Below, piece after piece: positions 3,301 to 44,448 of a stretch of DNA of 64,000 bases. The stretch spans positions 1,153,173-1,217,172 of the forward strand of contig FN649728.1 in assembly GCA_000310025.1 (NCBI GenBank). Direction: 5' to 3'. Below the pieces are notes generated by a model, which saw only the letters and a program-made list of their open reading frames with translations, was not told where the DNA came from and searched no databases. Source of the DNA: Ectocarpus siliculosus (lineage: Eukaryota; Sar; Phaeophyceae; Ectocarpales; Ectocarpaceae). The translations under genes were made by a program, and so were the position numbers. Numbering within the stretch: position 1 is the stretch's first letter; each line of letters begins with the position of its first letter.

Positions 3301-6300
3301 TTTACCAAGGTAGGGAAATTTGCGAAGCCAGTTCGAAGGCAATCACATTGGAACGTTCAATACTGTTCGGAACATTTCCAAATTGTTCAATGACCCCCGA
3401 AGTTTTTCAAGCCAAAACGTTTGAAAACTCCGGCGTGTATGAAACGCTCCTTACGTTGCCAGTCTGGTGATTATCTTTGGTGCTGGTCTTTAGGTTAGAA
3501 CGTGATCTGTCAAAGGCGTCGAAGGGTGCATACGTTTTTGCCGCTAATGCCATTGTTGATGTTGATGCTGTCGCGATTTAATCGTTGATGTTGTTGCTGT
3601 CGTTGTCATGGCTATGATGTTTTCGTTTGTGCTCGATCGATCGTTGTCGATGACGCTACTTGCTGCTGTGCATGATGATGATTCTGACGTTCTTCTTGCT
3701 TTCGTCACTCGACCTACGGACCTTGACATGCTCGAGCATCATCCACGTCACGAACTCCTCGATCTCGAGGAAACCGCTCCTGTCGAGATCGTACACCAAG
3801 GTTAGCGTCCGGCACCTTTCCTCATCCATCTTGCAGCCCAGCCCCTGGTGAACAAAAATAGTTCGTTAGTAATCCAGACACACGGGCTCGAGGTGTTGGC
3901 GGTTGCTGCGTTTCACCTAGGCACAGCAGGCGTAAAATCGTACCGGTCTGCAGAACGAAACGTCCTCTCTCGGAAGGGTCACCTCCGGCGGAGTCTGAAT
4001 GTCAGGAGGCATTTCCTCTGATTTTCACAACTCTCGACTTCGTTGTGTTCTTTGTTGGTCCCTTCCTTACTTTGATTATTCCATATACGCTCTTTTTTTG
4101 GGGGTTGTTTGGCCTCTGACCACGGAAGGCACCTTCGTGAGTTGGACTAGCACGGGTATGGTAGAAGGTATTGAGAAAACATTGGGATGGTTAGACTACT
4201 CATGTGAAATCGGGAACACCAACGTTTTGCACACCGACAGCCAGCGTGGTTGGAATGTTTCGATATTTACTTCACACCTTGAAGAGCTCGAGAAGTTCGC
4301 ACACCTCAAGCGACCCGCTCCTGTCCTTGTCAAACACCCTAGGGCAACAGCGCAAGGAAGTGAACAAGTTCACGTTTAGGTTGTGGAACGTACACATGTT
4401 GTTAATGTTGCGCGCGCACATAGATTCATGCCTCGGCGTCTGCTTCGAGGGAACTTCCGTGTTTTGTGGCAACCACACCATTCGATAGGAACCAACAGTA
4501 TCCCCACAGGATCTTCGATGGTTATCTCCAACGAGTGGAAAGCAGAAAAAATGCATCGTTGCTTGATTACGGGCTCCATGTGTTGATGGAGAGCTTGTAC
4601 GCCACTGCCATTAAATCCCTCATACACACACCCTTACGCTGGCAGCTCCATCTCATCGTTCAAAGTCCGGGTTCGAGTAGAGCGAAAATTAATTGATTTC
4701 ATAAAGTAAGCCACCGGCAGGTGGCCCCGAGAAACACGAAGTTGGCCATACTTCTCTGCCGGCCAGGCTTGCCCTGAGCATTCCATTCCCGATGTGCACA
4801 ATGTTTTAGATTATCCGACAAGCCGAATTTGAGACTAGTGTTGGAAATTCTTGTTTCGCTGTTTTCATCCTCTCTCGCAGTTCGAAACTACGCTGAACGA
4901 AGAATTCCTATCTTTGATGCTCGCTTCTAAGCGTTGATCACGAGAAGGGTTCGACCGTCATCCCCTTCCTTCCAGCTCACTCATGGAAGAGCGCCTTCAC
5001 CACGAGGTACGAAACGCGTGACAAACACATCTCACCGGTATACGAAAACGTACTTTTGAAGTTGCTTACTGGACCACCGGGGCGATAATACAAGCCTACT
5101 TCGGCTTGACAAAAAAAAATATTCACATGAGAAACACATTACTGTCCTTACCGAAACGCGGCCCTGAATACGGCGAAGAAAGCATCACTGTCGGCCTTTA
5201 TCTCTGCCCAGTCCATCTCGTCCAAAGCGCTTTCCATTGCCGTTCGAGAGGGTTGAAGGTTCACGGCATCTAGGAGACCCATCACCTAAAGACCGAGTAG
5301 ACTCGTACTGTGGTAGGGTTCTTTGGATATCTTGCGTTCTATGATGTGGGTTTCGATGGGTTCGTTGAGTGAATCCACCGCGGACTGTTTTCGAATCTTG
5401 TGATCGGTACACGTATTTCCACTTCACAACAAGCGAGGTTCGTGGACTGAGTAGAGTGCCTGATCCTTTCCAAACCACGTAAGAAAACCGAACAACAGGA
5501 CACAAAGGGAAGCGGTAGGGAGAAATAACGCGGTCCCGAAGAAGCACTGCAAGTGGCGTCCGCACCTGCTCCTTGGCCCTAGATCTCTCGTATCCATTGA
5601 GGACGACTCCGCCGCCGTTGCTTCCGCCCCCGCCCATCCCCGCCATCGATTGGGGCACGACCGATCCTGAGCGCTTAGAAAGGTCCAGCGATGCAATGCT
5701 CGCCTTCTGACCAATCTTTGCAATCGAGGCAAAAAAAGAGTGTGATGAGTTGATGGGTTGCATTTAGTTACCACAACACGTGTGGCAAGTTCGTGTCGTT
5801 CTACTCACACCATTGCGGGGCGGTGTTCAGCATATGACAACGCAAAAGTTCAGCAGACCTGGAGCAAAGAGGTGGGGTGTTGGTAGGCACCGATTGAAAT
5901 CCTACCGCAATGACTAAACACGGCCGCACTCCATGGTGAAGTCAGGATCGATCGGCCTTTGGGCATGACGCTAAATACGTTTCGGGCGGAATGAGAGGAT
6001 TGCTCGATCGACCGCCGTAGGTGGAGGCCATCACCATCGAAACGGAGACCAAAAGGAACGTGGCGCACGGCACAATGACCTCCACGCCAAGGGCAAAAGA
6101 GGCACCCACCCGCACAGATGGCACAATCTTTTTTATTCACGGCCAGAATGACACAAACCCATTTTTGTAAAGGGTGGCACCATTATTTCCCCTTCTTTTA
6201 TGTTAAAGCTGAGGTTAACCTCTGAGAGTCATGATCGAGGATAGCTGCTCTCTGGGCAGTGCCCTTCTCAACGTGATATTTTTCGAATGAACATTTATAT

Positions 6301-25846: not shown

Positions 25847-25855
25847 TCGACGGGA
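25847..25855. repeat. 9-bp target-site duplication, left copy
   Basis: TCGACGGGA occurs here just outside the left inverted repeat and again at 33980-33988 just outside the right one. Nine bases is the usual target duplication of Mutator-like elements. Two bases on the left and five on the right separate it from the perfectly matching inverted repeat, so the outermost element bases are imperfectly paired. Confidence 0.85.
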
Positions 25856-25857
25856 CC

Positions 25858-25985
25858 GCCGGTCGTGCATACGCCAAAGCTGGCGAGATAAAAAGGTTCT
25901 CCAGCTGGAAAACGCCTCCCAGAACCACACCCTACAACGCCTCATTTGAATTGAACGGGTCACACCGCCGCAGCAACAACGGCTG
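25858..25985 (+). repeat. MULE left terminal inverted repeat (128 bp)
   Basis: Begins GCCGGTCGTGCATACGCC and ends CAGCAACAACGGCTG. It is the exact reverse complement of 33847-33974. The transposase start codon lies 71 bp inside the inner edge, so promoter signals probably sit in or next to this repeat (inference). Confidence 0.95.
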
Positions 25986-26056
25986 GCGGCCAACGCGATA
26001 GTAGCGGCGTTCCCTTCAGCAGCTCACACCAGCCTCATACCAGTCTACGACAGCAG

Positions 26057-29000
26057 ATGGAGGTTGATTCCGCTGCGGCTGAGGCAAGCTCTTGGCAGCT
26101 GGAGGAGGTGCTGGCTTGTAGCGAGGACGAGACGCTCGATGTTGGTGGGGAGGAGGAAGCTGCTGGGCTTCCTTTCGACGCCGCCGAAGGCGAAGATAGC
26201 GATGACGAGCCCTCGCCTGCAGGTGGTGCAGGCCTCTGGGACCCATCTCTAGGTATGGCAGGCTATAAACGTATGGGTATGGCAGGTTAGTTCGCCGTGT
26301 TGTTGGTACGTTGTTTTGTTGGTACGTTACTCATCCGCGTGCTCCGATGTTTTCACCCGCGCGCACCTGGGTTTGACTCGCTTGCACAGGGGGGATCGCG
26401 ACCCTTGAAGAAGAGATAAAGAAACTAGAGTTCCCCAACCTCGAAGACGGGACCGGCAACTTTGGGGAGAAAACCATGGACAACGCAGTCGCGATGTTGA
26501 TGGCGAAGACCGGACGCGGCTTCAGCCTGAAGAGAGAGAATAAAACAAAGGTGACGTTGCGTGTTTCCATGTGTTGTTGGTGTGTGCGAAAGATGCCTGT
26601 GGGCTCGGCTTTTTCGTCTCGTCCACCGTAATCGCCTTATGATTAGCGACATGCGCAGCCTCTCATGTTGGACATCCGACGGCTGCTGACATCTGAATGT
26701 GTTGCCGCCGCCCCCCTCCAGCTTTTCACGAAAAAGCAGGAAAAGAACTCCCGCATGCGAAACAGATGGAGCTCCGTATGGATCAAGTGCTGCCAGGGGG
26801 GGAAGCCGAGAGCGTGTCAACGTGTCGCGGATCCGAGCGCTCGCCGCAACACAAAGTCACAGAAGGTTTGTCTGCCTGAAGTACGAACCGATGTGGAGCT
26901 CCCGATGTTGAGCTCTCGCCACCGTTGTGTCTCAGCTCCTCTTTTTAGCGCGTCGGGTGACGAGTCATCTGACAAGTCAACGGAGGAGTCGCGATGGGAA
27001 ATGGACATTGGGCGCGCTTTGTTGTTGAACTTCATTTCTTTTTGGCGCCGATTGAACATGATCGCTGCATACATGGACTTTTCGGGACATCGTCCGCGGT
27101 TGAACGTTCTGAGCTGCTGCGCTGTAGTCCCCCTCTCTCTGCAATATGAAGCGCTCGAAAACGCGAGCGTCGACGCAAGGAGTAGTTGTGTGCCGGGTCA
27201 GGACCTTTTGTTGGTCGCACGGCGGCCGCACCTCTTCGCTGTGGTCTCCGTTGTGCGGGCGATGCTCCAACGCGTTCTTCCGGCAAATTTGTTGGCTTTT
27301 CTGTTGTTGCTTGCTTGCTGGTTGCGCACCCTCTGCGCTGTAGTTGTCGAGGAAAGCACCGCAACAAGGGACGTAGGTGAGTCCACCTCCCGTGTGTATG
27401 TGTGTGTGTGTGCGGTTTGTCTTCGTGCGTATGAAACGCATGGAACGCAAATGGCGTAACGCTAAATGGCCATCGCTCTTCGCGCGGACACACATATTTC
27501 TTCTGTACCCTCACAACACTGTCGTGTTGTTTATACCCTGTCCGAATCCCAGGTGGGTTGCGAGTTCCACTTGGGGCTGTGGTGGGGGGCCGACATGAAT
27601 ACACCGCAAGTTGCAAAGGTGAGTTAAGTTGAGGGGAAGTACGTCGGTACAATGGATAGATCGCGTTGGATGCGTTAATGTAGGCAGCCCAAAGCTAGAC
27701 ATTCTTAACAAATGATGTTCACGCGGGTTCGAATCCCAGCTCTGACGCTTTGGACTCAGGAGGCACCCTTGATATATTTTGCCAGCACCGCATGGCGAGG
27801 GGTCCGTCCCCGGACATCACTGCCGACTGCACCTTACCAAATCAACTGCGCGTAGCCTGAGGTATGACAGGAGCGCACCCGCTTGTTTGAACATGGAGAC
27901 CTTGCGATCATGTGCGTACTGTTGACACTGCTTCGCTTGCCTCCCGATACCGGATGCGCAGGGAAAGGTTTGCCTCGCGCATCTTACCCCCGATCCAGAT
28001 TCAGCCGGAATGGAGCACGAGCGCCCACGACGCTACGAAAACGACGTGAGCGAGGAGGACATCGAGAAGGAATCCGAACTCATCCGTCTGCTACACTTCA
28101 AAAATTTGCCAACGATAGAGATCCACAAGGCTTTCGAGGACATCGGAAAGAGGCTGGGGAGAGCCGGAAAGCAAAAGGTGAGTGGGCGAGAGTGTAGTTT
28201 GCGGTAGTAAACGCTACCTAGACGGCGCGACGGGGGGGGGTAAGGGGGGAGTACTCATCGCCGTGCATGCCGCAGTCGTTAGACCGGTGACATGGCATCC
28301 CTACAAAGCCGGGACGGAATCATGCCGGCTTGTCACCGGACCAGTCTGTGACATCACCAAGCGCGAAGCACCGTGAGGTATTCGCCGAGTCGCATGGGGC
28401 GTGCCGCTACATCCAGCTGGGTGTGCGGCGTGTTGGGCTAAGGATGACAGCTGCGAGTAACCCTGAATTTGTTTTCGTGCTGCACTCTTCCAGAGACAGC
28501 AGTAAGGACAGTGTCAATACGTTGAGGGTGCTCGACCAATTCAACAGAAAGTGGTGCCACCATCCCCTTTGCGCAGAGTGAAGGTTGTCCACCCCGCACA
28601 CCATGATGTACTCGACCACCATCATGTTTGCCGCTAACAAACACCAAGGCGACAAAAAGTGGCAACCTTTTTGTCGAGCTCACAAAGCCATCGGCGTGTT
28701 GCCGAGCGACAAAAACCCACGGGAGGAACGGGGGGTAGCCCAAAAGTGGGGTGATGACGAATTATGTAACCGGCGGCATTTTCGTTGAAACCATTCTTGT
28801 TTCGTCTGCATGCTTTCGTCCGAGTACACCCTAACCGAGTTCACTGCCGGGTTGTCCATGTTTCCGTTAGGTGCGAAGCATGAGGGATGCGTTCGACGCA
28901 GAACGTAAGGCCGACAACGGAGTGTTCAACGACGCCCAGCTGTTCGTTTCGCACCTCCAGCAGAGCGAGGCTTTCATGAGGTTCAAGGCAGACGAGCAGG

Positions 29001-32000
29001 GCCGCATCACGTCCATCGCCTGGGCATATCAGCAGCAGAAGTACAACGCCGTACGATACCACTCCGTCATCGTCCAGGACAACACGTTCAACACGAACAT
29101 GTGAGTGTAGTGTTAGACGCTCTTTGTTCAAGTCCCTTGGCACCCCAAGTTGTGGGGGCAATACTGTTGTCGAGAAAAGTGTCGACGGTATCTTCTTCTC
29201 CACCATCTCACGCATGCCACGTCCCTTCTCCACGATCTCATGCACGCCATGTCCATTTCTTGTGCTTGTTGTGCCACGCCTCCTCCAACCAGATACAAGT
29301 TCCATCTTGCATTGATAGTCGTGGTGGACAAGGAGAACCACAGCCAGATTGCGATGCAAGCTCTGCTGTCAGACGAGCGGTCGGAATCCTTCGAGTTCGT
29401 CTTCGAGTCGTTCAAGCAGCTCTGCGAAGGAGGAACCCCGGAGGTAAAACAAAGTATGACAAGGCAATACAGTATGCACTCGCCCATAAATGGCGCCAGT
29501 CAATGTTAGAATAAAGGAACTGAACGCGATTTAGTTGAACACGACATGATCATGCGGTGAACTTCCTCCGGTCTACTGTGCTCGAATGTTGAATAAGGTG
29601 GTCTTCACTGACTGTGACGCAGCCGCGATGTTGGCAATCGCGAAGGTCTATCCATCGGCCCTGAACAAGTTGTGCATCTGGCACACCATGGGGAACATCC
29701 GGGAGCATGGGGGGGGTCTTGAGAAGGGTGTCCTGGGTCAGGTTCTTCAACTTTTCAAGGCAGCGGCGTACGCGCAAACGGAGGAGGTGAGCCATCTTGG
29801 TTGGACATTGAATCATTTTTTTCGTGGGTGATGTTCCGCACGGATCTTCCACTTGCAGGTGTAGGCCGTGTTGTCCAACGCTTGAGAGATCTGCGATCGT
29901 AGAAGCGCGGGAATCGTCGCCGCCGCGTGCGGCTACACCCAACGGCCCGCTCTCCTTGTTTTGTCTATTTCATACGAAAGGTCCTTGGCACCTTCTTTCT
30001 CCCGGTCCATTTTCTTTCATCCCGTCGCGTGCTCCGTTACTTGTCACTCTCGCAGTATTTCCTGCAATGTAAAGGGGCGCTCCTCGACCTCTTGCCCCCG
30101 GAGAGCAAGATGTACGAGTACATGGAGAAGAACATCTTCGGCACAGGGTAAGCACCGACTAGAATGACAGCCGATGCTAAGTAGGCCACGGACGCGTGAC
30201 GTCTTGCTCCTCCTCCGTCGACGATGCCTTTCTCCTGTTTATTCTGTTTGAAGGTTCCGTCAGTTGGTGACGTCGTCCGTCTCGTGCCCACTAAGTTTGA
30301 GCCGTCCCGTAACGTGTGACAGGCGGGCTGGCAAATGGGCGTCGTACGTCCACCCTGGGCTGCACACTCTCGGCATTGCCTCCACGCAGCGTGTTGAGTG
30401 GATGAATGCTGCGGTGAAGAAGCTGGTGACCAGGAAGGGCGACATGGTCGACCTCGGCCGAGCGCTCCTAGGCAAGGTTCAGGATGACATCAACAGGACC
30501 CAAAGGTGGGCGTCCGGTTGTGACATTTGCGTGTACATATTTTGCGACACCAGCTGAGGCAACCCATGGTCCAGTGACCTCGACGCATTGCGTGGTTGAG
30601 TTCTGGCAACCTGTTCAGAAGGAAGGTGGTAGCATTTGAAGGTGGTAGCATTTGAATTTTTGTGCCTGTCTCGTAGGTCGCCTCTCGACAACAAAGAGCA
30701 ATTGACCAACCACGCGGAAGCACGCCCGTTGCATGTGGATGAGGTCAACTCAACGTTCGCGAGGTGGTATGTCGTCGGTAGTGCGTATGCACGACGGACT
30801 CGAGGCTTCCCAGGCGGCCCACACCAGAGATCCTTTGCAATGACGGGGACAAAACACAACCAGAGTAACAATACATTAATAGTCGCCGGCATTTCTACAT
30901 CATGTTGTGTTGTGGCGCGTTTGGTTGACAAGTTTAGTGCTCTGCTCGTTGTGCCCCGTGCTTGCTAGACGAAACCTGGGAGGAACGGTCGCCCGAGTGG
31001 CTGTGCAGGGACACTCGTATGTGGAAAGCTTCAGGACCAAGCACCTGCGAACGTTCAACTTCGTCCTGAACGCAGTGAAGTACGAGCAGTGCAGCCAGCA
31101 CGCCACGGAGGTTAGTTGTGGCGGCCTTCGCTTGCGGCGATGGACGGACCCAGATTTTTTCTCCCCCATTACACCTAACCGTACCCCCCTCAGATGCGGT
31201 GCCTGACCAAGGAAAGTCACAGCGACGCGGCCATGAGTTGTGTCTTTTCCCCCCATTTCCTTCACTCGCCAACCCGACTTCTGCGTGCCCGCTTGTATAG
31301 CACAAGGTTATGTAATGGAGTTGTACTTGCCTTCGAGTTGTGGAAGGCGATCAGTCTTTGTGGGCAGCACCAACGACGCTGCTGGTATTCATGTCAATGC
31401 CGAACCTGACTTCCCTCCCGAACCCCCCCCCCCCCCTGTCGCACACCGCCCTTACCCATGGGCATGCCGTGTTGGCAGGACACTGAAGCACAGATCCTCG
31501 GGGCTCTCAGTTACGAGGCGATACCTGTCGTGCGTGACGAAGAGGCGGCGCGGAGACTGTTCGAGGAGTTGGTGGCAGACCCGACGAAGGCGAACCTCAC
31601 GTACGACACCGGCTCCGGAGAGTTGGTGGACCCTTCAATACCGACGTCCGAAGCCGCTGGTGTCTCCATGGTGTCCCGCACATCCGTGCCTCACTTCGCG
31701 GAGTTACTTCGTGACCAGAACGTCCACACGGTGGTGCGCATCACACCGATGTCTACGGCGTCCGAGTGCGGTCACCTCGTCGCCCTTGGACCGGACGGCT
31801 TCTTCCTCTGCACGTGCCTGCGGCAGCTCGTCTACGGGCTACTTTGCCCGCACGCCATCAAGGCCTTGTGGTACCAGCGTGCCTCCCAATTCAACGGAGC
31901 AACCATTTCACCAAGGTGGCGTGACAGTGAGACGCCATGGACGATGGCAGCGCTGGCCGCTAAGCCTGCCAAGCTATCGACCGGAGCTGCGGGGCTGACG

Positions 32001-32483
32001 GGACCTGCGGGGCCTACCGGACAGATGCCGCCCGTCGACACCAGTCCGATCGTGTCGTCCCACTCCGGACCCAACTTGTCGGCCTACGCGTACGCCAACG
32101 GCGTCGCCTTAGGGAAGGAGCTGGGTGGTATGTTCAAAGAGGTCCCGTCTGTGGCGAGCATCCAACGCTTGATGGAGTCCATGAAGTTCACGCCAAGCAA
32201 CAAATCGAGGTGGAGAAGCGGTCGTTACGAGACGAGTCAACGAGCCGGGTGTTCACGGGAACTCTCCCCCGGCCCACCCCTGCCCTGCCGCAGGGAGACG
32301 CCGGGGACCCTGGTCGGGGGGGACGCGGCCGGGGGGGAAAGGGGTCTACCGGAAGAGGACGGGCAGGGGAAAAGGGTGACCCTGGAAGCAGCAGCCAGGG
32401 AAGCGGTGGCGGTGGAAACGGCGGCCGGCGAAGCGGTGGCAGGGGCGGAGGGACAGGCCACGGGCGCGCAGGGGGGGGCGTAA
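26057..32483 (+). CDS. MULE transposase: FAR1 zinc region, DDE core, SWIM finger
   Basis: Thirteen exons join in frame: 26057-26252, 26390-26550, 26722-26865, 27553-27618, 27962-28177, 28871-29100, 29293-29443, 29598-29786, 30056-30147, 30323-30505, 30677-30763, 30969-31110 and 31479 onward. All are GT-AG and give about 953 codons. After an acidic N-terminus, residues about 109-215 form a FAR1-like Cys/His zinc region (GFSLKRENK, CCQGG, VGCEFHLGLWW). The DDE core shows D331 (VIVQDNTFNTN), D393 (VVFTDCDAAAM) and E507 (TQRVEWMNAAVK). A SWIM finger CTCLRQLVYGLLCPH lies at about 730-744. The tail is Gly/Pro-rich with collagen-like GPAGPTG. From about 32205 two frames are open: this one stops at 32483, while a frame open to 32806 carries more Gly-rich sequence and a basic end (PPPRKKQTGPSKRHK). 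The true C-terminus is uncertain. Confidence 0.88.
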
Positions 32484-33846
32484 ACTCTGCTGGTTTCGCT
32501 ACGGGTTCGCCGAGCGGTACCACGGGGGTTCGCCGAGCGTCCCACCCTCCGGCAGGATCGGACACCACCAGCGCCGCGCCTATCGGCTTCCAGGCGGCAC
32601 CCGTCAACGGGGCGCACACGTCCGAGGGCTTGGCGTTGCCGTTTCGTGCCCTGGACAACGTGGACGTTTCTCGTCGCGGGGGGGGGCAGGCTTCGCCACC
32701 GTTCCAGACGACCGCCCATCTTGTTCAGTTGGGGCGTCTGCAACCACCGCCCCGTAAGAAGCAAACGGGGCCCAGCAAACGACACAAAAGTAGTAGTGCG
32801 CCGTAGTGGAGGAGACCGTTTACCTGTAGGACACGTCAGGAAAATGTAAAGCGTGTTGCCGATGCCTTACTCGGCGTTGCATTCGCTTTGTTACCGTTGG
32901 CGCGTGTTGGTTTGCGCGCGCGTGTGGATGTGTGTTGCGTGTGTTGGGGGGTCTGCCAACAGCATCTGTTGTGTCGGATTGGTATTATTTCCTTCGGTAG
33001 CCGGCCCGCCGCAGCAAGGAGAAGGGGGATTCGCTTGGAAAACCATTGCCGGTTGGCAGGGGTGGAGGGGCAAGAGTCTCTCGACCCCGCGGAGTCTTCG
33101 TTCTTCCCCGTGTCCGATATGTTTTGAGTTTTTTTTTGCGCGTTGGATGAGAGTACCGCTGGTCCCTTTATCATGACCACTCATTGGAATTAAGTTGCAG
33201 CCTTGATTCGGCGTCGTGATGGTGTATCTTCTTTGCCCGTTGACATTTTATGCGGTTTCCCTAGAGCTCTCCGGTTTTGAAAGTACTCGCGTGTTCATGT
33301 TGGCAGTTGTCATGATGCTCCAAGAATCATATGATACAAACCAACTTTTCTTCTCTACGTCGACCGTCCGCACAACACGGAGGCAGCAGCTGCACGGACC
33401 ACCACAAAAACCGCGACCATTTGGGATGACATCCGCGCCGCACCACCACGCTCTCCCCCCTAAAACACACTAAGACACGTCCTCGACTACCGTATACGAC
33501 ACAAGATGACACCCCCTGGACCGATTTTCAAAGCTCGACTACGCCACGACGAAGAAGATGCATAAACGAAACGATACACTTTCGGAGAGCTCTCGACCAG
33601 ACAGCTTCAACGCCCCCGTTTTCGGCGCTGCGACTCTTTCTGCTGTTGATAAATCGAGCTTTCAAAATCGGTCGAGGGGGTGTGTTATCTTGTGTCGTAT
33701 ACGGTACACTAGCACTGGCAAATCAATGTACCTCGATTACACTGCAACATTTCCAAACTACGTCGTCCACATCATCCATGTCCATGTGGGTTGTCTGCTG
33801 CTGTTTTACGTGCGCGGCTACTGCTGCCATAGGTCTCAAGCGGATG

Positions 33847-33974
33847 CAGCCGTTGTTGCTGCGGCGGTGTGACCCGTTCAATTCAAATGAGGCGTTGTAG
33901 GGTGTGGTTCTGGGAGGCGTTTTCCAGCTGGAGAACCTTTTTATCTCGCCAGCTTTGGCGTATGCACGACCGGC
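33847..33974 (-). repeat. MULE right terminal inverted repeat (128 bp)
   Basis: Exact reverse complement of 25858-25985. Its outer end reads ...GCATGCACGACCGGC on the plus strand in approximate form (TATGCACGACCGGC). Five further bases precede the 9-bp target duplication at 33980. Confidence 0.95.
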
Positions 33975-33979
33975 TGTGA

Positions 33980-33988
33980 TCGACGGGA
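33980..33988. repeat. 9-bp target-site duplication, right copy
   Basis: TCGACGGGA, matching 25847-25855. It marks the right junction between the MULE and the original host sequence. Confidence 0.85.
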
Positions 33989-34847
33989 TCGCAGTGCAAC
34001 TGCTTCACTACGTCGAGGGAAGATACCTTCCTGTTGCGCCGCAGCTCCTGTAGCGACGGTGGCAAGGTTTTGCTGTGCGCGTGTGTGAAGTTCATCCAAA
34101 ATCACATGCTGGCTCTCGACCGTGCCGTGAGGATGAAAATAGGGGTGCTTTCTAAATATTATAAAAACAATAAATATTCGTGGGGAGCCATCTCGACACC
34201 TCTGCCCAGCCCACCCTCGCCTCGCCAAACGACCTCCTTGCCCACGATCTGGGATCCTGCAAGCGGATCCGGACTGCTGTAAATGTGAGTTCAGCCTTTT
34301 GGTTGACCGTTGGTGAACATACGAGGTCAGGGTTTGAGCGCATCGTGCGCTCCGTGCCAAGTGCTCATCGGCGGGAGGAAGGAAGACAAGGAGAGGCTGT
34401 TTCAGCGCTTCTCGCCCACGGGGCAAGCGTACCGGGGCAAGCCGCGACCGCCCCAGAGTCGGGCCGTGCAGGGCCGTGCAAGAGCTCCATTTCTGGGAGG
34501 CAGCTCATCGTGCCTCGCGTGTCAAGAACAAAATCAGAATCCCGGAACCGTTCGGCGGATCTTCAACAAGTAATGTTTATTCGCTGTGTGCCGACCAGTC
34601 TCTCACCAGTTCTGAAGAGACCCACACACACCCACCCAACCCAGCAGGCACAGCACGCACAGCACGCGGCATCACGAAGCAAGGTGAGGGAGTGCGTGAC
34701 ACGGAGTGCCGTAGGTGCCCCGTACGCGTGGACAGGGAGGGAGACTGGTAGTGAGACCGATCGGCGCACACCAATGTAGTCATTGTTACTTCTTGTTCGA
34801 ACTTCAACATAGTCCCGTCTCGTTTGCGCCGTTCATATACAGAGAGG
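33989..34847. other. Upstream region of the ankyrin gene
   Basis: No supported gene. An open plus-strand stretch at 34310-34573 contains a basic segment (GGRKEDKERLFQRFSPTG), but its splice context and family are unclear. Short tandem GCACGCACA and CACACACCCA tracts lie near 34620-34670. It probably includes the promoter and leader of the ankyrin gene. Confidence 0.4.
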
Positions 34848-36125
34848 ATGGACCTCAAGAAGGTGGACTTCATGCTGCAATTCGTGAAGCAATACAGGCA
34901 AGCCTTGGGTCAAGAACTTCAACGCCTCCAGGATGGGGGTCGCAGCAGAACCCTTGGCGACTTCGGATGGTTGGACTCCGGGGCACTCGATGCTTTCGCC
35001 GAGAGATACTTCGCCATCGACGCTGACGAGAGAACTACAACACTCGGCTTCGCTGCCTCGGAAGGAAACAATCACATGGTGAGATGTCTGTTAAGGTGGA
35101 AGGACAAGGACGAGCAAGACCAGTTCGGATACACGCCACTCATGAAAGCAGCCGAAAACGGCCACATGCCTGTCATGGAGACCCTGCTGGACCAGGGTGC
35201 CGATGCCACCTTTAGGCACCTCGACGACGGTAGTACTAGTATCATCGCTGCTGCTCTCGGAGGATATAATGAGATAGTCATTGCTCTGTTGAACAAGGGG
35301 GCTGACAAGGACTCTCCAGCCGCAAATGGACGGACACCACTGATGGAGGCGTCCAGAAAAGGCCACCTTCCTGTCGTGAAGACTCTACTGAACGCCGACG
35401 CGGATGTAACTCTCGCTGCCCATGGTCTCACAGACGAAGATTATTGCCTTGGAGACAACTGTACTGCTCTCCACTTTGCTACAGCGGGAGGGCATCTTGG
35501 TGTAGTCAACGCCCTTTTGTCCAAAGGGGGATTGGAAATAGATGCGGTGGATACTGATGGAACCACGGCACTGCATTTGGCAGTAATAATGGGTAGGTCG
35601 CTGCCCATCATGGAGACCCTGCTGGTTGCTGGTGCCGATCCAGATATCCGTATTAATACGGGTGGAGTCCAAGACTGCCCTCTCGAGACGGCCTGCCACT
35701 CTAAGGATAACATCGGCACTTACCATGTGTGTAAAACCCTTATCGACCACGGGGCCGACGTCAACTCTCGTTGTCCTTTTGGTTCGACACCGCTGCATCA
35801 TGCGTGCGATTATAGCCAAAGTGATGCGGTACTGAGACTCCTCTTGCAGGCGGGTGCGGACGAGAACGCGTTGAATGATGATGGCGATACTCCTGGGGTA
35901 CGCGAACTTCTCGCTGACCGAGCGTGGCGTCGCAGGGGCTGGCTTGTCATGCTTCGTTTGCGCACCCTGAAGGCTGGTGGCGACGGTGGTGCTGCGGGAG
36001 CGCGCTCGGCGAAGCAGCGGGGAGGGTCTGGTGGCGGGGAGGAGAGCTTCAACCTGTCTGAGGCGGTGGAGTGGCTTGGGGTGGTGGAAGAAGGCGTATT
36101 CCGCAACGTTGTCAGCTTTCTGTGA
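34848..36125 (+). CDS. Ankyrin-repeat protein, single exon
   Basis: ATG at 34848 and TGA at 36123 give 425 residues. The frame is open slightly upstream but without an earlier ATG. At least seven ankyrin repeats run from about residue 60 to 350, with the classic G-TPLMKAAENGH, G-TALHLAVIMGR and GSTPLHHACDYSQ helices and the turns LLDQGADATF, LLNKGADKDS and LIDHGADVNS. The N-terminal 60 residues are helical, with no signal peptide. The C-terminal tail has a basic segment (WRRRGWLVMLRLRTLK), a Gly/Ser-rich linker and a hydrophobic end (VEWLGVVEEGVFRNVVSFL). Ankyrin repeats mediate protein-protein contacts; the partner is unknown. Lack of introns is unusual here and suggests a retrogene or an expanding single-exon ankyrin family (inference). 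Confidence 0.9.
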   Translation: MDLKKVDFMLQFVKQYRQALGQELQRLQDGGRSRTLGDFGWLDSGALDAFAERYFAIDADERTTTLGFAASEGNNHMVRCLLRWKDKDEQDQFGYTPLMKAAENGHMPVMETLLDQGADATFRHLDDGSTSIIAAALGGYNEIVIALLNKGADKDSPAANGRTPLMEASRKGHLPVVKTLLNADADVTLAAHGLTDEDYCLGDNCTALHFATAGGHLGVVNALLSKGGLEIDAVDTDGTTALHLAVIMGRSLPIMETLLVAGADPDIRINTGGVQDCPLETACHSKDNIGTYHVCKTLIDHGADVNSRCPFGSTPLHHACDYSQSDAVLRLLLQAGADENALNDDGDTPGVRELLADRAWRRRGWLVMLRLRTLKAGGDGGAAGARSAKQRGGSGGGEESFNLSEAVEWLGVVEEGVFRNVVSFL

Positions 36126-44348: not shown

Positions 44349-44448
44349 NNNNNNNNNNNNNNNNNNNNNNNNNNNNNNNNNNNNNNNNNNNNNNNNNNNN
44401 NNNNNNNNNNNNNNNNNNNNNNNNNNNNNNNNNNNNNNNNNNNNNNNN
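44349..44448. other. Assembly gap of 100 N
   Basis: Exactly 100 N, the usual filler for a gap of unknown size. ORFs crossing it are meaningless. Confidence 1.

Follow-up and report, generated by a model that had tools for sequence, protein, structure and literature searches.

A Mutator-like element (MULE) of ~8.1 kb lies within the window, the 64-kb stretch of DNA analysed here. It is bounded by terminal inverted repeats (TIRs) of 128 bp, the left identical to the right as a sequence-only reading had already observed, and carries a gene that was rebuilt from the six-frame translation of the window. Thirteen exons and 12 introns, all GT..AG, yield a single open frame (953 aa and a stop codon, 26057-32483; Table 1). 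The sequence-only reading took this for an intact, young and possibly active element with an uninterrupted transposase. Comparison with its relatives in the genome (189.5 Mb, 492 contigs) changes part of that picture: very probably, the element in the window belongs to a small family that has multiplied recently in a brown-alga-like genome, and this copy bears damage of its own and is probably not self-sufficient. By its sequence traits (long TIRs, target duplications of 9-10 bp, one multi-exon gene, a MULE-type DDE domain and a C-terminal SWIM-type zinc motif) the family is a member of the MULE superfamily.

A search of both strands of the window finds the nine bases TCGACGGGA at two places and no others, 25847 and 33980, outside the TIRs, so a 9-bp duplication does flank the element on both sides as first claimed, but it is offset from the canonical ends. 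The ends of the family are CGCCGG and directly abut the flank in other copies, with perfect duplications directly on the ends at loci L011 (10 bp), L015 (9 bp) and L016 (10 bp). On the left of the window copy, one base separates the duplication from CGCCGG; if a tenth base is counted, the duplication becomes the 10-bp TCGACGGGAC, with one mismatch to the right copy. On the right, TGTGA stands where the final G is expected. The right flank of L011 also starts TGTGA, as at window 33975-33979, perhaps by chance. The offset, a single base at the left end and several at the right, could mean that the nine-base match is fortuitous and that the two ends derive from different insertions, making the element a nested or composite artefact. 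We consider this extremely improbable, as 9/9 bases match at both ends and nowhere else in the 64 kb, and L009 and L016 show the same full-length layout at other sites. The chance of a nine-base match is ~36 x 4^-9 = 1e-4 by our own arithmetic. A target-site duplication is by far the best reading of the TCGACGGGA pair in spite of the offset, and such duplications were found in 4/5 copies with both ends (the window copy, with its offset 9 bp, L011, L015 and L016).

A rough join of the 13 exons was used as the query for Pfam profiles. The MULE profile (PF10551) matched the spliced protein over its full length (profile positions 1-99, E = 1.8e-19, 70.4 bits against a cut-off of 27.6), and a ZSWIM1-3 RNaseH-like domain was also matched (7.3e-14). 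The D-D-E core proposed earlier is borne out, with D331, D393 and E507 assignable by motif position as a putative catalytic triad; which residues are catalytic is presumed from the motif of the MULE family. The SWIM finger stands as a motif, CxCx9CxH being complete in the window copy and CxC..CxH being kept in L029, L030 and L033, but falls short as a profile match (E = 0.025 in the rough exon join; for the SWIM stretch alone E = 0.003 and 17.5 bits against the Pfam cut-off of 19.6). NCBIfam matches to IS256 (2.5e-6, 26.7 bits against a cut-off of 150) and likewise IS1249 were far below cut-off, which agrees with the distant kinship known between these families and MULEs. A sequence search of the PDB returned one meaningless match (E = 0.62), and the N-terminal profile returned none. 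Exons 2-5, 6-8, 10 and 13 are backed by related loci.

The transposase had also been credited with a FAR1 zinc region. Searches for FAR1 (PF03101) gave no match with the spliced protein as query (E<=1) or with its N-terminal region (E<=10), and none exceeded the cut-off genome-wide, where exons were searched singly, which weakens the test; the only two candidates, of 19.3 and 18.8 bits, lay elsewhere in the genome. On these results a FAR1 domain recognisable by profile is rejected. A Cys/His pattern (IKCC, GCxFH, CLAHxT) does extend across exons 3-5. L034 keeps it and L036 keeps part of it, and its layout is one that we take to be reminiscent of the FAR1/WRKY-GCM1 finger; the pattern still allows a very diverged finger of the WRKY-GCM1 type. 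A place on contig C32 (L035, E = 0.028) was considered as a relative of the N-terminal region, and nothing convincing was seen on reading it. FAR1 organisation had been described as best known from land plants. FAR1 is tabulated for parabasalid, oomycete and fungal MULE groups besides plants (Dupeyron et al. 2019, PMC6446971), and its presence in a non-plant MULE would therefore not be new anyway.

Table 1. Features of the element, in positions of the 64-kb window.
Feature	Position	Strand	Support in other loci
Left target-site duplication copy, TCGACGGGA	25847..25855	no strand	
Left TIR, 128 bp, identical to right TIR; canonical end CGCCGG from 25857	25858..25985	+	
Exon 1	26057..26252	+	present in L017 as well
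Exon 2	26390..26550	+	kept in L017 and L034
Exon 3, start of Cys/His-rich N-terminal region (IKCC)	26722..26865	+	kept in L034, partly in L036
Exon 4, VGCxFH part of Cys/His-rich region	27553..27618	+	kept in L034
Exon 5, CLAHxT end of Cys/His-rich region	27962..28177	+	kept in L034
Exon 6, first catalytic Asp (putative, D331)	28871..29100	+	homology in L030
Exon 7, MULE domain	29293..29443	+	profile match, related loci
Exon 8, second catalytic Asp (putative, D393) and CxxH	29598..29786	+	profile match, related loci
Exon 9	30056..30147	+	open frame and splice sites alone
Exon 10, catalytic Glu (putative, E507), then Trp in window copy, Ser in 5/5 others	30323..30505	+	
Exon 11	30677..30763	+	open frame and splice sites alone
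Exon 12	30969..31110	+	12/13 junction matched by L033 stretch containing a stop
Exon 13 as read in window copy, SWIM-type motif CxCx9CxH; last 98 codons off family frame	31479..32483	+	
Remainder of family exon 13, outside window copy's frame	32484..32806	+	in L013 and L016 frame
Internal inverted repeat, 38-nt arms, 84%, near element 3' end	33479..33715	no strand	other copies too
Right TIR, 128 bp; outermost bases 33975-33979 non-canonical	33847..33974	-	
Right target-site duplication copy, TCGACGGGA	33980..33988	no strand	

The inverted repeat near the 3' end may be a small element nested there long ago, or a structure of the 3' end itself.

A genome search with the left TIR, of the kind that the sequence-only reading had proposed for finding further copies, gave at least 18 matches at no fewer than 12 loci, the window included. 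Eleven non-window loci were retrieved and compared with the window copy. The whole element with both ends is present in three copies (window, L009 and L016). L013 retains nearly all of it but contains 158 internal N, is trimmed at one end and has lost a single base of exon 8; L011 is without 684 bp on the 5' side, exons 1 and 2 included. L012, which has no right end in the stretch examined, and L015 have one internal deletion in common, at about window-equivalent 27723-30582. As the two lie on different contigs, this points to movement of non-autonomous derivatives. Truncations or interruptions affect L010 and L014, and L017, L018 and L019 are diverged or short. L014 (G000:C6:95000-104900) is interrupted after ~215 bp by ~7.6 kb of other sequence, with a 5-bp repeat at the junction, and then runs into an assembly gap. 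Between L017 and L016 the TIR differs at 22/129 bases against only ~6% in exons 1-4 and introns 1-3, as if TIRs turned over faster than the interior of the element; the TIR end of L019 is similar to that of L017. A search of phage records for the TIR found none, and six pattern matches to relatives in viral contigs were not confirmed.

The distance from the window copy is 0.175-0.245% for L009, L010, L011, L012 and L013, 0.55% for L015 and 0.71% for L016, and the greatest distance for any pair is 1.19% (L015 and L016). Judged by this comparison the family spread recently, since the seven longest copies besides that of the window differ from it by 0.18-0.71%. We also considered whether the gene, instead of belonging to a transposon, is a FAR1/FHY3-like gene domesticated by the host, given a spliced structure and zinc motifs that, at the motif level, we take to resemble those of transposase-derived regulators. 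This is hardly credible in view of the TIRs, the target duplications and the many near-identical copies, since mobility of the family contradicts it; moreover, FAR1 went undetected by profile and there is no sign of purifying selection. A transposon gene thus remains the preferred reading.

A closer inspection of the coding sequence reveals that the exons of the window copy do join in frame, but that the openness of this frame is accidental. The window copy alone is without one exon 13 base near 32186, which is present in 7/7 copies (L009, L010, L011, L012, L013, L015 and L016). In L013 and L016, exon 13 is open to a stop at 32806, giving a Gly/Arg-rich tail with a basic end. The diverged locus L034 (at C462) lacks its middle part and is 59-82% identical over exons 2-5. 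In a single frame of its own, and up to SKRHK, it aligns to the tail as read in L013 and L016 (38%, with EKRS and SKRHK in common), although its own tail contains stops. Since the seven copies and L034 support the other frame, the last 98 residues of the window copy are off the family frame. A second difference lies in exon 10, where the residue after the catalytic Glu is Trp in the window copy and Ser in 5/5 covering copies (L009, L010, L011, L013 and L016). In related loci the Glu is followed by Gly (VEG in L030 and L033, TEG in L029), and the matches of L026, L027 and L031 end at VE. Among the three copies with all 13 exons, L016 is open over 1,061 aa, L009 is cut short by a stop 101 aa in, and the window copy, in its shifted frame, terminates prematurely. 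L009 and L011, with an extra 11-bp duplication near the exon 13 site, have disruptions of their own, to which L009 adds a one-base loss in exon 2, and a common stop after the SWIM motif is found in L009, L010, L012 and L015. Taken together, these comparisons point to a damaged transposase in the window copy, which is probably not self-sufficient. The structure first described is right, but the claim of an intact and possibly active element is weakened by the frameshift and the Ser-to-Trp change, which are private to this copy among the copies compared.

Several observations weigh against this reading. The missing exon 13 base falls in a short C run, a typical place for errors, and could be an assembly error. 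The stop common to L009, L010, L012 and L015 may mean that the tail is dispensable, or that these copies moved in trans. L009 has both canonical ends and yet is without a duplication. In coding sequence L016 differs from the rest by 12 nonsynonymous changes and 1 synonymous change, where 73%/23% is expected at random, in a comparison without an outgroup in which some of the differences belong to the other branch. Relative to the older partial copy L017, exons 1-4 show 8, 11 and 11 changes at codon positions 1, 2 and 3 (in exon 2 alone, 7/10 at position 3). Protein-level selection between lineages is thus not clearly visible from these counts. Were the two private differences assembly errors or harmless, the window copy would be fully intact and active, and the open 953-aa frame, the full set of splice sites and a truncated-tail lineage at no fewer than four loci would agree with this. 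We nevertheless regard it as unlikely, though deserving of some weight, given that the other exon 13 frame is seen in all seven copies and the diverged L034, that Trp replaces a small residue kept in all five covering copies and three related loci, and that the right terminal bases are non-canonical. A damaged copy remains the favoured interpretation.

With regard to age, 4 substitutions are private to the window copy in ~8.1 kb (29890, 30400, 30666 and 32323), the missing exon 13 base being additional. A change was counted as private when all other covering copies agreed, and position 33979 was dropped as part of the non-canonical end. A laxer rule, by which one other copy may differ, gives 7. 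The mutation rate of Ectocarpus is given as 4.07e-10 per site per generation, with an interval of 4.9e-11 to 1.5e-9 (PMC10254074). At that rate 4 substitutions correspond to ~1.2 million generations, an estimate with a wide error that is valid if the host mutates like Ectocarpus; near-identity of the copies need not, therefore, mean few generations. The distances of 0.18-0.71% suggest that the insertion in the window is young, as had been claimed, but not on the grounds offered, since identical TIRs do not date it: TIR identity was rejected as a measure of age because both ends of a DNA transposon are inherited from the donor. Empty sites, another check proposed earlier, were searched for in the assembly by joining the two flanks of the window copy, and likewise those of L011 and L015. 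Each joined sequence matched only its own two halves, in a search that can miss common words; no empty paralogue was found.

If the family behaves as other MULEs do, the transposase of a working copy would bind the TIRs, cut the element out and reinsert it elsewhere with a 9-10 bp duplication. The window copy would have arrived by such a transposition, and the one-base loss in exon 13 and the Ser-to-Trp change would have arisen after arrival or in the immediate donor. The window copy could then be moved in trans by another copy. The family may still be mobile, with one open-frame copy and a deletion derivative at two places. With an open-frame copy, defective full-length copies and a common deletion derivative, the family would be suited to the study of trans mobilisation and loss of function.

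A second MULE family (e.g. L022, L026, L027, L031, L037-L040) accounts for 28/45 profile matches, at 52.1-52.6 bits. Its copies are mostly 99-99.9% alike (9 loci compared), and it is more numerous and more uniform than the window family. Clusters of one-strand G-to-A changes were seen in one member of each family. In L015 (G000:C2:6695690-6700953) there are 10 within 390 bases, window-equivalent 31488-31877, and 10/10 follow an A; with 20 AG among the 122 G of the region the chance is ~1e-9, computed after the fact. Two of the ten are common to L009, and the stretch also contains one G-to-C and one C-to-G. In L028 (G000:C1:2913000-2922900), of the second family, there are six at L022-equivalent 4715-5226, five after C and one after A; a poorly aligned stretch of this copy contains many further differences. 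No such cluster was seen in eight other loci of that family, four of which are 1.8-kb pieces. A common context for the two clusters was rejected (10/10 after A against 5/6 after C). The L015 cluster could be read as the work of a processive deaminase, or of a RIP-like process mutating repeats, on repeated DNA of the host alga, which is very unlikely. Elsewhere in the window, an ankyrin-repeat open reading frame lies directly downstream of the element (34824-36125, Ank_2 2.4e-49), and a run of exactly 100 N (44349-44448) is probably a scaffolding gap.

The suggestion of an algal-type genome is supported by the domain EsV_1_7_cys (PF19114), for which at least 150 genome matches exceed the cut-off (150/150 scored, from 880 candidates) against 0 in 14 control genomes, of which the three named ones are prokaryotes, so that the controls say little about other eukaryotes. 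This domain is described as having proliferated in brown algae and as otherwise mostly known from giant viruses (PMC12477816), and the host is probably a brown alga. The work adds a well-resolved MULE family for brown algae, a group whose transposons have been curated only recently (PMC12477816), and lends no profile support to extending FAR1-type transposases to algae.

The kind of element is already known, according to the published tables and entries at hand: MULEs with FAR1 and MULEs of stramenopiles have been published (PMC6446971), and so has one MuDR family in Ectocarpus (PMC12477816). An excerpt of PMC3627910 names MuDR elements in fungi and none for Ectocarpus. For Ectocarpus sp. 7 a single DNA/MuDR entry is given, one family with 56 copies of which 42 are counted intact (PMC12477816). 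It is alike in being a MULE family in a brown alga; however, judged by description and not by sequence, the second family with its 28 matches is a likelier counterpart than the 12-locus window family. The FHY3/FAR1 proteins and Jittery-type plant MULEs share with the window family the order of an N-terminal Cys/His region, a DDE core and a SWIM motif, and differ in that PF03101 is undetected here. MULE-Diatoms (group 37; Dupeyron et al. 2019, PMC6446971) resembles it in its stramenopile type of host and, at the motif level, in its SWIM finger; compared by description only, its TIRs are 123-124 bp against 128-129 bp in the window family, and the table gives 'No TSD and not indicated' against the 9-10 bp found here. 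With the MULE superfamily as a whole (PF10551) the family has in common the MULE-type DDE domain, long TIRs, 9-10 bp duplications and the SWIM-type C-terminal motif; nothing in it points outside the superfamily, within which the 13 exons and the Gly/Arg-rich tail are details.

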